A DNA stretch of 43,664 nt, taken from positions 1-43,664 of the forward strand of contig CAMAWP010000016.1 of NCBI GenBank assembly GCA_945861765.1. The letters are read 5' to 3'. A model generated the notes under the pieces. That model saw only the letters and a list, made by a program, of their open reading frames with translations. It had not been told where the DNA came from and did not search any database. Made by a program: the position numbers and the translations under genes. Shown one piece after another: positions 9,119 through 28,027 of this stretch (its first letter is position 1; each line of letters opens with the position of its first letter). The stretch is from Akkermansia muciniphila. GTDB taxonomy: Bacteria > Verrucomicrobiota > Verrucomicrobiia > Limisphaerales > SIBE01.

Positions 9119-12373
<3,255 letters not shown>

Positions 12374-15642: not shown

Positions 15643-18600
15643 TCATGAGTCTGCGGGGTGAACGGACGATACGCGACTCGGAGATTCGATCCCTCTGCGC
15701 TCCACCCACTCGTAGAGCACGGGCAGCAGGACGAGCGTAAGAAAAGTTGAAGTGATGATGCCGCCGATGACGACGGTCGCGAGCGGGCGCTGGACTTCTG
15801 CACCTGCGCCGGAAGCAATCGCCATCGGCACGAAGCCAAAGCTGGCGACTAGCGCGGTCATCAACTTCGGGCGCAGCCGGGTCAGTGTGCCCTCGATGAC
15901 AGCTTCGCGCACAGTGCGACCTTCACGCCTCAACTGGTTGATGAAGCTGATGAGCATGATGCCGTTCAGGACGGCGATGCCACTGAGCGCGATGAATCCC
16001 ACACCCGCGCTGATGGTGAAAGGCATGTCGCGCACCCACAGCGCGAAAATGCCGCCCGTGACGGCAAGCGGCACGCAGACGAAAATGAGAGCGGCCTGCC
16101 GGAAGCTGCCGAAGCTCAGAAAAATCAGGATGAAGATGAACACCAACGCCATCGGCACGATGATGGCGAGCCGCAGCCGCGCCCGTTGCAGGTTCTCGAA
16201 CTGCCCACCGAACTCGAAGTAGTAGCCGGGCGGAAACTTCACCTCGGCCTTGATGCCAGCGAGAGCCTCTTTTACGAAACCTTCCACGTCGCGTCCACGC
16301 AGGTTCACGAGCACGGCGGCGCGACGCTGGCCGGATTCACGAGTGACTGCGCCGACAGCTTCTAGCATCTCGAAGCGGGCAACTTGACCGAGCGTTAGCA
16401 AGCCGCCTTCGTCCGTCCGCACCGGCAACCGCTTCATCGTGTCCACACTTTGACGGGCAGCTTCGGCAAGACGCACGACGATGGGGAAGCGCCGGTTGCC
16501 CTCGATGATGGTGCCCACTTCCTCGCCCGCCAGCGCCGTGGCAATGGCGCGATTCAGGTCTTCGGTTTGCAGACTGTAGCGGCGGAGCGCGTCGCGGTCG
16601 GGTTTGATTTCCAGCAGTGGCGAGCGACCGAAGGCGTCGAATTCCACGTCGCCGCTGCCGGGAAGTTTGCGGAGCAAGTCGCGAACTTCCGTGGCCAGCC
16701 GCTCCAACTCCTTGAAATCGTCGCCGTAAATCTTCACCGCGATGTCGGCGCGGACGCCCGCCATCATTTCGTTGAAGCGCATCTGAATCGGTTGGGTGAA
16801 CAGATACGTCTGCCCCGGCACATGCACCGCGAGATCGCGGCGCATCAGTTCGATGAGTTCCTCCTTGGTCGCGGGACGGCCATTGATTTTGCGCCACTGG
16901 TTGCGCGGTTTGAATTCAACATAGGTGTCGCACAGGTTTGGCCCCATCGGGTCCACGGCGATTTCCGCCGTGCCGATCAGGCCAAATATGCGGTCGATTT
17001 CGGGGAACTTTTCCAGCAGCCGTTTCTCGGACTGACGCTGCAATTCGGTGGACGCGCCCAGCCCGGCGCTGCTGCTGCGGATGAATTGCAGGAGCATCGT
17101 GCCCTCTTCGAGTTGCGGGATAAACTCCGCGCCCAGCCGCGTCAAGACCAACAGCGACGAGCCGAACAGAACTACGGCGGCTGTGACAACGACCAGTTTG
17201 AACTGGAGCGCCCACGCGAGCAGCGGTGTGTAAACCGCCTTGAAGAAACGCACGAGCCAGTTGTCGTCCTCCTTGATTTTGCCGCGCAGGAAATAGGAAC
17301 AAAGCACCGGCATAAGCGTGAGCGCCAGGACGAGCGAACCGGCGAGCGCGAAGATGACGGTGAGCGCCATCGGGCGGAACATTTTTCCTTCGATGCCGGT
17401 GAGCGCGAGGATTGGGATGTAAACGACTGTGATGATGAGCACCCCAAAGAACATCGGGCTGGCGACTTCCTTCGCCGAGAAACGCACTTCGTCGAAGCGT
17501 TCGGCGGCGGTGAGTTCGCGGCCCAGTGCCTTCTGCTTGTGCGCGAGATGACGGATGATGTTTTCCACCATCACCACCGCGCCGTCGATGATGAGTCCAA
17601 AGTCGATGGCCCCGAGGCTCATCAGGTTCCCTGACACGCGGCTCTCCACCATTCCGGTAACGGCGAAGAGCATCGACAGAGGAATCGCCAACGCAACAAT
17701 CAGCGCTGCCCGCAGATTGCCGAGCAGCGCGAACAGCACGACCACGACGAGCAACGCGCCCTCGAACAGACTTGTCTCGACCGTGTGCAGGGTGCGGTTC
17801 ACCAGGTCGGAACGATTGTAGAGCGGGCGCACCTCCACGCCGGGCGGCAGCTTCTCCTGGATGTGTTTCAGCTTCGCCGCCACGTCTCGGGCCACGATGC
17901 GGCTGTTCCCACCCGCCAGCATCAAAGCGCCGCCGACCACGCCCTCTTCACCATTCACCGTGGCCGCGCCGGTGCGGAAACTCGACCCGATTCCAACCTG
18001 GGCCACGTCTTGCACGAGAAGCGCCTTCGCCGCCCCGGCGAACTTGAGCGGGATGTTCGCAATCTCATCGGTGGTGCTCACTCGGCTGTTGGCGCGGATG
18101 ACGATCTGTTCGCCGCCGATTTCGACCAGCCCTCCGCCGACGTTCTGGGTGTTCTCACCGATAGTGTGCGCTAGTTCATCCATCGTCAGGCCGACGCTCG
18201 TCAGACGCGCCGGATCGGGCATGACGACGATTTGCTTTTCATAGCCGCCGCTCGTGTTCACCTCAGCGACGCCGGGCGTAGCACGGAGTAGTGGGCTGAT
18301 GATGTATTCCTGAATCTGCTTGAGGGTCATCAGTTGCCCCGTTCGCGTCATCGTGGCAGCCGAGGTAACGAGGCTCTGAGTTTCCGCGTTCGTTGGTTTG
18401 AGCCTCCTCACGTCGGATGCAGGAGAGTTGGACGCAAAATCGACCGTGTAGTAGAAAATCTCACCGAGCGCGGTGCTGATGGGTGCAAGCCTGGGGTGCA
18501 GGCCGGGCGGGAGTTTTTCCGCCGCGACCAGCAGTCGCTCGCTCACCAGTTGCCGCGTGCGGTAGAGGTCAACGTCGTCCTCGAACGTCATGCGGATTTG

Positions 18601-18873
18601 CGAGAGGCCGAACTTCGAGAGCGAGCGCAGTTCGATCATGCCGGGCAGTCCGGCCATCTGGCTTTCGAGCGGGAGCGTGACGAGCTTCTCGATTTCCTCC
18701 GGCGCAAGCGCGGGCACGGCAGTGTTCAATAGCACCTGGGGATTGGTGATGTCCGGCACCGCGTCAATCGGCAGGCGTAGGGCCGACCATGCGCCGACAC
18801 CAACAAGGACGAGCGCGGCCAGCAATACGAGCGGCCGTTGGCGGAGCGACCACTCGACGGTCTTGAGTATCAT
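15643..18873 (-). CDS. CzcA-type heavy-metal RND efflux pump, copy 2, with an in-frame palindromic-element insertion
   Basis: A 1076-residue RND pump with helix-4 motif DFGLIIDGAVVMVEN, here D424, D430 and E437. The roughly 20-residue shift relative to copies 1 and 3 comes from an extra segment at residues about 154-174 (DVRRLKPTNAETQSLVTSAAT), encoded by the palindromic element at 18353-18420. The segment lies in the first periplasmic domain just before LMTLKQIQEYIISPLLR and keeps the frame. Otherwise the protein is complete, ending soon after the last membrane helix. It is preceded by its adaptor gene with a 4-bp gap and followed by small gene A. The metal is likely a divalent cation on the same grounds as copy 1. 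Confidence 0.94.
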   Translation of the reverse strand: MILKTVEWSLRQRPLVLLAALVLVGVGAWSALRLPIDAVPDITNPQVLLNTAVPALAPEEIEKLVTLPLESQMAGLPGMIELRSLSKFGLSQIRMTFEDDVDLYRTRQLVSERLLVAAEKLPPGLHPRLAPISTALGEIFYYTVDFASNSPASDVRRLKPTNAETQSLVTSAATMTRTGQLMTLKQIQEYIISPLLRATPGVAEVNTSGGYEKQIVVMPDPARLTSVGLTMDELAHTIGENTQNVGGGLVEIGGEQIVIRANSRVSTTDEIANIPLKFAGAAKALLVQDVAQVGIGSSFRTGAATVNGEEGVVGGALMLAGGNSRIVARDVAAKLKHIQEKLPPGVEVRPLYNRSDLVNRTLHTVETSLFEGALLVVVVLFALLGNLRAALIVALAIPLSMLFAVTGMVESRVSGNLMSLGAIDFGLIIDGAVVMVENIIRHLAHKQKALGRELTAAERFDEVRFSAKEVASPMFFGVLIITVVYIPILALTGIEGKMFRPMALTVIFALAGSLVLALTLMPVLCSYFLRGKIKEDDNWLVRFFKAVYTPLLAWALQFKLVVVTAAVVLFGSSLLVLTRLGAEFIPQLEEGTMLLQFIRSSSAGLGASTELQRQSEKRLLEKFPEIDRIFGLIGTAEIAVDPMGPNLCDTYVEFKPRNQWRKINGRPATKEELIELMRRDLAVHVPGQTYLFTQPIQMRFNEMMAGVRADIAVKIYGDDFKELERLATEVRDLLRKLPGSGDVEFDAFGRSPLLEIKPDRDALRRYSLQTEDLNRAIATALAGEEVGTIIEGNRRFPIVVRLAEAARQSVDTMKRLPVRTDEGGLLTLGQVARFEMLEAVGAVTRESGQRRAAVLVNLRGRDVEGFVKEALAGIKAEVKFPPGYYFEFGGQFENLQRARLRLAIIVPMALVFIFILIFLSFGSFRQAALIFVCVPLAVTGGIFALWVRDMPFTISAGVGFIALSGIAVLNGIMLISFINQLRREGRTVREAVIEGTLTRLRPKLMTALVASFGFVPMAIASGAGAEVQRPLATVVIGGIITSTFLTLVLLPVLYEWVERRGIESPSRVSSVHPADS
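18353..18420. repeat. Palindromic element, copy 1, inserted in frame inside czcA copy 2
   Basis: The plus strand starts GTGGCAGCCGAGGTAACGAG and ends AGCCTCCTCACGTCGGATGC, imperfect inverted repeats of the same terminus found in copies at 23494-23575 and 27927-28012. The interior (TTCGTTGGTTTGAGCCTCC) also resembles the 23494 copy. It is 68 bp, shorter and more diverged than the other two. It is translated as DVRRLKPTNAETQSLVTSAAT in the pump. Confidence 0.82.
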
Positions 18874-23493: not shown

Positions 23494-23575
23494 GTAGCAG
23501 ACGACGTGAGGAGGCTCTATCCCTCCGTCGCTTCGGTTGGTGTTTCAGTTAGAGCCTCCTCACGTCGGCTGCTAC
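23494..23575. repeat. Palindromic element, copy 2, forming the 3' end of czcA copy 3
   Basis: An 82-bp element with 25-bp imperfect inverted termini: the plus strand begins GTAGCAGACGACGTGAGGAG and its other end is the complement (CACGTCGGCTGCTAC). The czcA copy 3 frame enters it and reads KRSSRREEALTETPTEATEG before stopping at TAG (complement of 23517-23519) inside the element. It ends 8 bp from the start codon of the next gene (23486), so it also fills most of the gap between the two genes. Confidence 0.9.
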
Positions 23576-26500
23576 GTTTAGTTTCAAGCCACTCGTAAAG
23601 CGTCGGGAGCAAAACGAGAGTGAGGAAAGTGGAGGATAGGATGCCGCCGATCACGACGGTGGCGAGCGGGCGTTGGACTTCCGCGCCCGCGCCACTGGCA
23701 ATCGCCATCGGCAGGAAGCCGAGCGAGGCTACGAGCGCCGTCATGAGTTTGGGACGCAAGCGCAGCAGAGAGCCGTCCCAGACGGCAGTGCGCACGTCGG
23801 CGCCGCGCTCCCGCAACTGGTTGAAGAAAGTGATGATCATGAGTCCGTTGAGGACAGCGATGCCGGAAAGCGCGATGAAGCCCACGCCCGCCGAAATGCT
23901 GAACGGCAGGTCGCGCGCCCACAGCGCAAAGACGCCGCCGGTCACGGCGAGCGGCACGGCCAGGAACACCAGCAGGGATTGCCGCACGCTTTGCAGGGCC
24001 ATGAAGATGAGGATGAAAATCAGCGCCATCGCAACAGGCACGACGATGGTGAGCCGTTTCCGCGCTTCCATCAGGTTCTTGAACTGGCCGCCGAACTCGA
24101 TGGTGTAGCCGTCCGGCAGCTTGATTTGCTCCGTGATCTTCTTTTGCGCTTCGAGGACGAAGCTTTCCACGTCGCGTCCGCGCAGGTTCACCATGATGGC
24201 GGCGCGGCGTTGGCTGAACTCACGGGCGATGGCGGCGACTTGTTCGACCACGCGGAAGTCGGCGACCTGGCCAAGCGTGAGCAAGCCGCCGTCGTCCACC
24301 CGCACGGGCAGACGCTTGAGATCGTCGATTTTCTCGCGCAATTCCTCGCTCAAGCGAATCACAATGTCGAAGCGGCGGTTGCCTTCGATGAGCTTGCCCA
24401 CTTCCTGCCCGGCGAGCGCGGCGGTGACCACGCGGTTCAACTCGGCGGCGTGCAGGTTGTATTGGCTCATCGCCTCGCGCTTGGGAACTATTTCGAGCAA
24501 AGGTGATTTGCCGAGCGCATCGAACTCCACGTCCGCCGCGCCGGGAACTTTTTCCAAAATGTCCCGCGCCTCGCTGGCAATCCTCTCAATCACCGCGAAG
24601 TCCTCACCAAAGACTTTCACCGCGATGTCGGCGCGGGTGCCTTCGAGAATTTCGTTGAAGCGCATTTCAATGGGTTGGCTGAACAAATGGCCTTCGCCGG
24701 GAAGGTGCTTGCCCAACTCCTCGGTCATCAGCGCGGCGAGGGCTTCCTTGCCGATGGGTTTGCCGTCCACTTTGCGCCACTTATCCAGCGGATTGAACAT
24801 GATGTAGGTGTCCGCGACGTTCACGCCCATCGGGTCGCTCGCGATTTCCGCCGTTCCGAGGCGGCTGAAGGTGTAGGAAACTTCGGGAAATTTCTCCAGT
24901 AGCAGCTTCTCGCCGCGTTTCTGCATTTCCACGCTGGCATCAATGCCGATGCTCGTCGTGCGAATCATGTGGGTGGCGAACGAACCTTCGTCCAATTGGG
25001 GCACGAATTCCGCCCCCAGCCGGTTGAACACAGAAACCGCCAGGATGAACAAAACCAGCGCCGCGCCGGTGACGACCCAGCGGAAGCCCAGCGCGAAGCG
25101 CAGGATGGGCGTATAGACGATCTTGGCCCAGTTCACGAGGAAGCTGTCCTTCTCCTTGATGTTACCGCCGAGCAGATACGAGCAAAGCGCAGGCATGAAC
25201 GTGAGTGCCAGAGCCATCGAACCGACGAGCGCGAAGATGACGGTGATCGCCATCGGCTTGAACATTTTTCCCTCGATGCCAGTGAGCGCGAGAATCGGGA
25301 AATAGACGACGGTGATGATGCACACGCCGAAGAACATTGGGCTGGCGACCTCCTTGGCGCTGACGAGCACTTCCTGGGCTCGCTCCAGCGCGGTTAACCG
25401 GCGTCCGAGCTTGTGCTGTTTCTCCGCGAGATGACGGATGATGTTTTCCACCATCACGACCGCGCCATCCACGATCAGACCGAAGTCAATCGCGCCCAGG
25501 CTCATCAAATTGCCGGAGACTCGGCTCTGCACCATGCCGGTCATAGCGAAGAGCAGTGACAGCGGAATGGCCAACGCGACGATGAAGGCCGCACGCCAGT
25601 TAGCGAGCATGACGAGCAGCACGACGACGACTAGGATCGCGCCCTCAAACAAACTTGTTTCCACCGTGCGGATGGTGCGATCCACCAGCACGGTGCGGTC
25701 ATAGACCGGGATGATTTGCACGCCCGCCGGGAGTTTGGTCTGAATCTCCTTGAGCTTTTCATCCACACGTTTGGCGACGATGCGGCTGTTTTCACCGGCC
25801 AGCATCAGGGCGGAGCCGAGCACAGCTTCTTCGCCGTTGTAAGTCGCCGTGCCGGTGCGAACGGCTTTCCCGATGCCCACGTCCGCAACGTCTTTGACGC
25901 GCAACGGCGTGGCGCGCGAACCGAACTTGAGCGGCAGCCGCTCGATTTCCTCCACGGTTTGCACCCGGCCCGCCGCGCGCACCGTGACCGATTCGCCGCC
26001 GAGTTGGATCAGGCCACCACCTGCATTCTCGACGTTCTCGCCGATGGCTTCGGCAATTTCACTAAACGACATGCCGACGCTCTTGAGCTTGTCGGGATTG
26101 GGCTGAATGACGATTTGCTTTTCGTAACCGCCGGTGGTGTTGACTTCGGCGAGGCCGGGTGTGGAACGCAGGCGCGGCTTGATGACGTAATCGTGCAGGA
26201 GCTTGAGTTCCATCAACTGCGCCTCGCGCGTGGCGGGCTTGTTCGTAGCGCCCACCGCGTATTCGACGACGTAGTAATAAATCTCGCCGAGGCCGGTGCT
26301 GATGGGCGCGAGCTTGGGCGTGAGGCCGGGTGGCAATTCATCAATCACCGTCTGCAAGCGTTCGCTAACGAGTTGGCGCGAGCGATAGATGTCTGTGCCA
26401 TCCTCGAAGATGATGTTCACTTGCGAGAGTCCGAACTTGGAGAGCGACCTCAACTCCGTCAGGCCGGGGATGCCCGCCATCTCGTTCTCAATCGGAAAGG

Positions 26501-26696
26501 TGACGAGCTTTTCGATTTCCTCCGGGGCCAGAGCGCGGATCGCAGTGTTGATCTGCACCTGGACGTTGGTGATGTCCGGCACGGCGTCAATCGGCAGGCG
26601 CAGCGCGGAGTAAAGGCCGATGCCAACCATGACCACGGTGGCGAGCAGCACGACCACGCGCTGGCGGACGGAGAATTCAAGGAGACGGTTGAGCAT
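23517..26696 (-). CDS. CzcA-type heavy-metal RND efflux pump, copy 3
   Basis: A 1059-residue RND pump, closer to copy 2 than to copy 1. Helix 4 reads [15 protein letters not shown] with D404, D410 and E417, the CzcA proton-relay set. The periplasmic segment EYAVGATNKPATREAQLMELK is the uninterrupted version of the place where copy 2 has its insertion. The last 19 or so residues (RSSRREEALTETPTEATEG) and the stop codon come from the palindromic element at 23494-23575; the native C-terminus probably ended near EWLETK. Unit 3 also has a TolC (28024-29349) and a short adaptor (27191-28027), but a plus-strand four-helix-bundle gene separates them from this pump. Confidence 0.94.
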   Translation of the reverse strand: MLNRLLEFSVRQRVVVLLATVVMVGIGLYSALRLPIDAVPDITNVQVQINTAIRALAPEEIEKLVTFPIENEMAGIPGLTELRSLSKFGLSQVNIIFEDGTDIYRSRQLVSERLQTVIDELPPGLTPKLAPISTGLGEIYYYVVEYAVGATNKPATREAQLMELKLLHDYVIKPRLRSTPGLAEVNTTGGYEKQIVIQPNPDKLKSVGMSFSEIAEAIGENVENAGGGLIQLGGESVTVRAAGRVQTVEEIERLPLKFGSRATPLRVKDVADVGIGKAVRTGTATYNGEEAVLGSALMLAGENSRIVAKRVDEKLKEIQTKLPAGVQIIPVYDRTVLVDRTIRTVETSLFEGAILVVVVLLVMLANWRAAFIVALAIPLSLLFAMTGMVQSRVSGNLMSLGAIDFGLIVDGAVVMVENIIRHLAEKQHKLGRRLTALERAQEVLVSAKEVASPMFFGVCIITVVYFPILALTGIEGKMFKPMAITVIFALVGSMALALTFMPALCSYLLGGNIKEKDSFLVNWAKIVYTPILRFALGFRWVVTGAALVLFILAVSVFNRLGAEFVPQLDEGSFATHMIRTTSIGIDASVEMQKRGEKLLLEKFPEVSYTFSRLGTAEIASDPMGVNVADTYIMFNPLDKWRKVDGKPIGKEALAALMTEELGKHLPGEGHLFSQPIEMRFNEILEGTRADIAVKVFGEDFAVIERIASEARDILEKVPGAADVEFDALGKSPLLEIVPKREAMSQYNLHAAELNRVVTAALAGQEVGKLIEGNRRFDIVIRLSEELREKIDDLKRLPVRVDDGGLLTLGQVADFRVVEQVAAIAREFSQRRAAIMVNLRGRDVESFVLEAQKKITEQIKLPDGYTIEFGGQFKNLMEARKRLTIVVPVAMALIFILIFMALQSVRQSLLVFLAVPLAVTGGVFALWARDLPFSISAGVGFIALSGIAVLNGLMIITFFNQLRERGADVRTAVWDGSLLRLRPKLMTALVASLGFLPMAIASGAGAEVQRPLATVVIGGILSSTFLTLVLLPTLYEWLETKRSSRREEALTETPTEATEG

Positions 26697-27190: not shown

Positions 27191-28027
27191 TCAGTGGCTA
27201 TGCCCACCGCCTTTGGTCGCGCGGAGTTCAATGAGCCAGAGGGTTTGCACGGGCTTGGTCACGACTTGGTCGCCCGCGAGAAGACCGTCGGTGATCTCCA
27301 CCCAGCCGTCGGCTTCCGACCCGACTTTGACCGCCGTGCGGAAATACGCGTCGCCGTTGACGGCATAGACGAACGTGCCTTCGGAAGTGCGCAACAAAGC
27401 CGCTTGCGGAATCGCCGCTACGGCTTTCTCGCGTGGCAGATTGATGCGGGCCGGGACGAACTCCCCGGACTTGAGCGCCGTCGTCGCATTGGACACACCG
27501 ATGACGACTTCGGATTCACCCAGGGCCAGCGCCTTTTGCACGGCTAGAACGACCCCGCTCAGCGGGCTGTCGGTGTCCTTGAGAACATGCACGGACTGGC
27601 CGGCTTTGACCACGGCGGCGCTCTCCGAAGAAAGAAACGCGGAGCCATGCACGTCGCAGCCGGAATGCACTTCCGGATTCAGCAGGTGATGGTGCTTCTC
27701 GCCGAAGATCTGAACGGTGAGGTGGATTTGGTTCGAGAGCTTCCGCTCCGTCACGTCCGCCGTTTCCAACCCGAGAATCTTCCGAGTCTCCTCCGTGAGG
27801 CTGACGCCCTTGCCCGCCTTGAACGAAGCGCCGGAAGGCGATTCCTCACCGTGATTGTGACCATCGTGCTTGCCGTGAGCCTCTCCCTTTTTGCCGCAGC
27901 CTGCCAGGGCGAGCGCCAGGATCAACGTAGCAGCCAACGTGAGGAGGCTCTGAATCCCCCGCCTCCTCGACCGCCGCGAGTCAATCCGGAGCCTCCTTAC
28001 GTCGGCTGCTACAATATTGGCTTTCAC
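27191..28027 (-). CDS. Short periplasmic adaptor lipoprotein (HlyD/CzcB-like), unit 3, with element-derived N-terminus
   Basis: A 278-residue protein starting at a GTG (complement of 28025-28027) that overlaps the upstream tolC stop by GTGA, implying coupled translation. Residues about 6-34 are encoded by the palindromic element at 27927-28012 (AADVRRLRIDSRRSRRRG, then QSLLTLAAT). The hydrophobic core continues into a perfect lipobox (LALAGC, Cys44). The mature start is His-rich (AHGKHDGHNHGEE), with more His at KHHH and GCDVHG. The rest keeps barrel and membrane-proximal parts (AAIPQAALLRTSEGTFVYAV; WVEITDGLLAGDQVV) but no recognisable alpha-hairpin. It ends KGGGHSH. It partners CzcA copy 3. 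Confidence 0.88.
   Translation of the reverse strand: MKANIVAADVRRLRIDSRRSRRRGIQSLLTLAATLILALALAGCGKKGEAHGKHDGHNHGEESPSGASFKAGKGVSLTEETRKILGLETADVTERKLSNQIHLTVQIFGEKHHHLLNPEVHSGCDVHGSAFLSSESAAVVKAGQSVHVLKDTDSPLSGVVLAVQKALALGESEVVIGVSNATTALKSGEFVPARINLPREKAVAAIPQAALLRTSEGTFVYAVNGDAYFRTAVKVGSEADGWVEITDGLLAGDQVVTKPVQTLWLIELRATKGGGHSH
27927..28012. repeat. Palindromic element, copy 3, at the tolC/adaptor junction of unit 3
   Basis: An 86-bp element starting GTAGCAGCCAACGTGAGGAG and ending CCTTACGTCGGCTGCTAC on the plus strand, imperfect inverted repeats of each other and of copies 18353-18420 and 23494-23575. It begins 12 bp past the tolC stop and is read in the same phase as the copy inside czcA copy 2 (AADVRRL ... 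QSLLTLAAT), supplying the N-terminus and the start of the signal-peptide core of the adaptor. Confidence 0.9.

Follow-up and report, generated by a model that had tools for sequence, protein, structure and literature searches.

A REP-like palindromic repeat read in frame within a heavy-metal efflux pump gene

The window analysed here is the whole stretch of 43,664 nucleotides of contig CAMAWP010000016.1, which comes from a draft assembly of 7.27 Mb (556 contigs, 5.91% contamination). It carries three related pump genes, and the second of these (pump copy 2) contains a palindromic element that resembles repetitive extragenic palindromic (REP) sequences and lies in frame with the pump (Table 1). 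Copy 2 encodes a protein of 1076 residues with a match to Pfam ACR_tran from residue 7 to 1057, thus covering the full-length domain, and its nearest solved structures are CusA and ZneA (4k0e, E = 1.2e-185). The helix-4 acidic residues D424 and D430 are invariant among 27 homologues. Like CzcA, CusA and ZneA, copy 2 is therefore a full-length heavy-metal efflux pump of the resistance-nodulation-division (RND) type.

Table 1. Features of the window
Feature	Coordinates	Strand	Basis
Pump copy 1, most diverged of the three, used for comparison only	9119..12361	-	pairwise identities
Pump copy 2, CzcA/CusA-type RND heavy-metal efflux pump, host of the insertion	15643..18873	-	Pfam ACR_tran, ZneA 4k0e, dN/dS
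Codons 154-174 of copy 2, peptide DVRRLKPTNAETQSLVTSAAT	18352..18414	-	translation
REP-like imperfect palindrome, 71 nt, within the pump gene	18353..18423	-	arm family, fold, absence from close orthologues
Downstream arm GAGCCTCGTTACCTCGGCTGCCAC, well preserved, giving SLVTSAAT	18353..18376	-	1 mismatch to arm pattern
Upstream arm CCTGCATCCGACGTGAGGAGGCTC, GTAG end decayed	18400..18423	-	4 mismatches to arm pattern
Second palindrome copy, gives the C-terminal tail RSSRREEAL... and stop of copy 3	23494..23575	-	arm hits, sequence, translated tail
Pump copy 3, comparison pump, this loop uninserted	23517..26696	-	alignment with copy 2
Lipoprotein, 278 residues	27191..28027	-	no Pfam match
Third palindrome copy, in frame in the lipoprotein signal peptide	27927..28012	-	arm hits; G028 orthologue without palindrome

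An earlier examination of the DNA letters (the sequence-only reading) had proposed that copy 2 is about 20 residues longer than copy 3 between the motifs E-I-x-Y-Y and LM, that the excess is a peptide encoded by an inserted element, and that the frame and all later motifs are kept. The difference is exactly 20 residues, and the Asp of the helix-4 motif GAIDFG moves from residue 404 in copy 3 to 424 in copy 2. The codons of residues 154-174 come from a palindrome that is dispersed through the genome, which bears out the proposed source of the extra residues. Its two 24-nt arms enclose a loop at 18377-18399, and one end has decayed from GTAG to CCTG. As RNA the palindrome is predicted to fold at -29.2 kcal/mol (z = -3.5), with none of 200 shuffled sequences folding equally well; its predicted fold as DNA is weaker (z = -1.85).

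When a 111-nt region around the insert was searched against the genome, 68 matches were found, the best other than itself having an E value of 7.5e-10. The arm motif, GAGSCTCSTYACSTCGGCTGCTAC, occurs 140 times at up to three mismatches, and the reversed pattern used as a control does not occur at all. Together these counts exceed chance, and residues 154-174 derive from the 71-nt imperfect palindrome. The motif is spread through the order: of 58 genomes, 37 have it at up to two mismatches, among them all eight that were searched from the same family. Members of the family carry GTAGCAGCCGACGTGAGGAGGCTC arms and take the doublet form GTAGCAGCCGA[CG]GT[GA]A[GC]GAGGCTC, a variable loop and the inverted arm; intact copies start with GTAGCAGCC and finish with GGCTGCTAC, so that they have GTAG ends, and the loops between the arms vary among genomic copies. 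Doublets are numerous and dispersed, 52 having been counted in the fetched loci and the window. Two arm haplotypes occur, in matched doublets 12 and 22 times and mixed nine times, the pump copy being mixed. An Rfam scan of the window gave no match.

Close orthologues of copy 2 (80-90% identical) have a short loop lacking the segment, as seen in L061 (90% identical), L062, L063 and L064; L033 and L062, and likewise L041 and L063, appear to be the same contigs, and each pair was counted once. More distant pumps also have a short loop, which varies among them in length and sequence. Two pumps of the same family, L032 (genome G006) and L043 (G007), have a long loop that is diverged from the window insert but homologous to it, and the non-arm stretch ACGAACGCG is common to all three inserts. 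This sharing points to one old insertion, and L032 and L043 are unlikely to have gained their inserts separately at this site because sequence outside the arms is shared. We also looked among the orthologues for an equally long homologous loop without palindromic DNA and found none, since both orthologues with a homologous long loop hold recognisable remains of the element.

Outside the loop, the ratio of nonsynonymous to synonymous substitution rates (dN/dS) of copy 2 is 0.092 against L061 and 0.076 against L032, indicating that the gene is under strong purifying selection. These values, together with the diverged copies in the family's other genera, agree with the sequence-only reading in its suggestion of an older insertion whose frame was kept by selection. 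Its further statement that copy 2 has diverged more than the other two pumps was wrong: copies 1 and 2 are 47.6% identical, copies 1 and 3 50.3% and copies 2 and 3 64.6%, so copy 1 is the outlier, and in the tree the branch of copy 2 (0.042) is similar to that of the empty L061 (0.037). These two are sisters (100/99), and the tree leaves the order among the other near pumps open.

Other repeats have also entered this loop in relatives, as well as a second site near residue 534, in a cytoplasmic loop between transmembrane helices. In L043 a second repeat (CCCCTCACCCCGTCCCTC..., with dozens of copies in G007, G003 and G000) breaks into or replaces the upstream half of the insert. L046, from G003, has an insert of similar length at the first loop, but its sequence is unrelated and it therefore represents a separate insertion rather than a homologous loop. 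At the residue-534 loop, the repeat in L063/L041 has the form GTAGCGCAGATTTCC...GGAAATCTGCGCTAC and is found again in G016, and the one in L046, GTAGGGCGAG...CTCGCCCTAC, is present in over 40 nearly identical copies in G003. L046 additionally has a repeat of the CCCTCACCCC type, of which L043 also holds one. The reading frame is open in all inserts at both loops. The copy 2 insertion thus lies in frame in a conserved gene whose orthologues occur without it, as in insertions of the Rickettsia palindromic element (RPE) kind.

In the AlphaFold model of copy 2 (mean predicted local distance difference test score, pLDDT, 83.2), the insert is mostly predicted as a low-confidence flexible loop between a strand at residues 138-146 and a helix at 177-197. 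The pLDDT is below 50 at residues 149-162 and averages about 51 at 161-170. In the alignment with ZneA, residues 144 and 176 of copy 2 pair with ZneA residues 142 and 144, so that ZneA has next to nothing of the loop in which copy 2 has its 20 extra residues. From the general RND fold we take the loop to belong to the periplasmic porter region. The suggestion that the insertion lies in a tolerant periplasmic loop therefore stands, by homology, as to place, and is consistent with the modelled flexibility; that the loop tolerates changes in length is probable, judging from this flexibility, the ZneA alignment and the other inserts in relatives.

The explanation we favour, with a probability of about 0.9, is that a REP-like doublet with GTAG ends inserted into a tolerant loop of the pump and that its frame was kept by selection on the host gene. 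A non-autonomous palindromic doublet would have entered a czcA-type gene in an ancestor common to the family's other genera, landing in the periplasmic loop that leads from a porter-domain strand to the next helix. Given a net gain that is a multiple of three and an element frame without a stop, the pump could have gone on working with 20 extra residues, and selection on the host would then have preserved the frame while point mutation decayed the element. That loop and the cytoplasmic one near residue 534, which accept other repeat families in relatives, would be the tolerant sites of the pump. The element may have been moved in trans by a REP-associated tyrosine transposase (RAYT), the peptide is presumably nearly neutral, and the empty sister L061 presumably lost the element or had it replaced.

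Several points weigh against this explanation. Because L061 is the sister of the window pump and yet is empty, a single gain would have to have been followed by loss or gene conversion, or the element would have to have spread by recombination. The insertion junction and any target duplication are unreadable, the empty orthologues being too diverged, and the translation of residues 154-174 is that suggested by the open frame. The fold of one arm alone is weak, has a stem of 4 bp and is no better than those of shuffled sequences, unlike that of the GTAG REP unit, a hairpin with a stem of 5-13 bp (PMC3733652), although the two arms together pair well as RNA. GTAG REPs are also linked to RAYT transposases (PMC3733652), whereas no convincing arm copy was found near 55 loci with Y1-transposase (Y1_Tnp) genes, of which 25 are the Y1_Tnp matches of the genome itself and 30 are from relatives (seven genomes in all). 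We therefore call the family REP-like rather than RAYT-REP, bearing in mind that RAYT genes can be missing (PMC3733652). The G016 pump contains a GTAGCGCAGATT-type repeat, and repeats of this type lie near Y1_Tnp matches in G002 and G024 (L301 and L298), but these matches are partial and such a RAYT-REP pair is only suggestive.

Among the alternatives, the one that survives best, though improbable, is that the peptide was kept because it altered the pump, for example in metal access or contact with a partner. Retention of an old insertion in other genera would suit such a role, as would the neighbouring lipoprotein, in which the downstream arm of a repeat now lies in a hydrophobic signal peptide. 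However, the L032 and window inserts have diverged from each other, that of L043 is broken up by another repeat, L046 has unrelated sequence in the same loop, and the model shows no stable structure there. It is considerably less likely still that an ordinary loop of variable length resembles the repeat by chance: this loop does vary among distant pumps, but the close orthologues all have it short, and the match to another genomic copy and the excess of arm hits over the control refute chance resemblance in practice. A repeat misjoined into the gene during assembly might be expected in a draft so fragmented and contaminated, as repeats provoke misassembly, but is very improbable given homologous, diverged, in-frame inserts at the same site in the separate genomes G006 and G007. 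We set aside, as just as improbable, a skipping of the hairpin in expression (by ribosome bypass or RNA removal) that would yield a protein without the segment, because, although the RNA hairpin is stable, the element has an open frame and no insert at either loop disrupts that of the pump, which skipping would not need.

Apart from the short stem and the lack of a transposase partner at the loci examined, the family behind the pump insertion is much like GTAG REPs in consisting of short, dispersed, GTAG-ended palindromes that often form doublets and sometimes lie in open reading frames (ORFs); some GTAG REPs lie wholly within ORFs and are read as 20-30 residues (PMC3733652). Repeated insertion into one gene is a further likeness, as the verrucomicrobium Opitutus terrae has intragenic GTAG REPs, among them double insertions into uvrA genes (Di Nocera et al. 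2013, PMC3733652), and different REPs occupy about the same recB site in two Xanthomonas species (PMC3733652). Unlike in that report, the host here is a metal pump in which empty, shared, nested and other-family insertions are found side by side. The RPE of Rickettsia are likewise dispersed palindromes lying in frame inside apparently functional genes (cited in PMC3733652), but the window family is of unrelated sequence and from another phylum, and RPE-4 and RPE-6 belong to the CGTC rather than the GTAG superfamily (PMC3733652).

The family also resembles miniature inverted-repeat transposable elements (MITEs) in being short, non-coding and inverted-repeat, but no transposon with its ends turned up, though no systematic search for one was made. 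In one homogeneous subfamily of mostly 85-86 bp (L006, L008, L009, L011 and L014 in the genome itself), the loops are conserved and so are the flanks (GGAAATCCAATTCATT ... TTTTTAAAACA); by its sequence, the subfamily seems to be a longer, MITE-like element that spread recently. None of its 23 copies lies in a gene counted as coding, compared with 7 of the 29 remaining palindromes (two of the seven genes lacking a Pfam match); this contrast (Fisher p = 0.013) is descriptive, as the data had already been seen when the coding set and the sorting rule were fixed.

Four ORFs of the genome that are confirmed by Pfam contain the palindrome in frame. It lies within the span of the Pfam match in a guanylate cyclase/kinase (L229) and an nSTAND1-WD40 protein (L230); the other two ORFs encode a glycosyltransferase (L252) and an FG-GAP/UnbV/TPR protein (L233). 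In most cases the downstream arm is translated as SL[LV]TSAAT. In L262-L266, orthologues of the L233 protein, other insertions occupy the same linker and a second one near residues 640-660. ORFs around the copies L198, L211, L223 and L251 were disregarded as probably spurious.

Within the window, the signal peptide of the lipoprotein encoded near the pumps reads VKANI[VAADVRRLRIDSRRSRRRGIQSLLTLAAT]LILALALAGC, in which the downstream arm, read as SLLTLAAT, has become part of the hydrophobic run preceding the lipobox; the orthologue in G028 has an ordinary signal peptide without the repeat. From its position and a weak similarity, the lipoprotein probably serves the efflux system as its periplasmic adaptor. 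Three palindrome copies in 43.7 kb compare with about 0.4 expected (Poisson p = 0.009), an unfair test in that the copies themselves drew attention to the window.

The lengthening of proteins by selfish DNA is already known but seldom documented, and the pump is a clear new example. What is new is a comparative series within one gene, comprising empty sites, an old and decaying shared insertion, a nested insertion and other families at two loops, all in frame, so that the process can be tested in a family of transporters for which structures have been solved. In annotation and modelling, such repeat-derived segments should not be taken as functional loops. A more tentative idea, which we consider possible but rather doubtful, is that the palindromic repeats of the order are a continuing source of new protein segments, with unrelated families repeatedly entering the same pump loops and at least one copy, that of the lipoprotein, co-opted into a working signal peptide.

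Two minor observations concern other repeats. At L251:317-1981, a stretch of 1.7 kb holds three related palindromes whose arm is a variant (GTAGCCGCCGAGGTC...), and positions 89-208 of the window consist of two head-to-tail copies of a 60-bp unit that are 98% identical.
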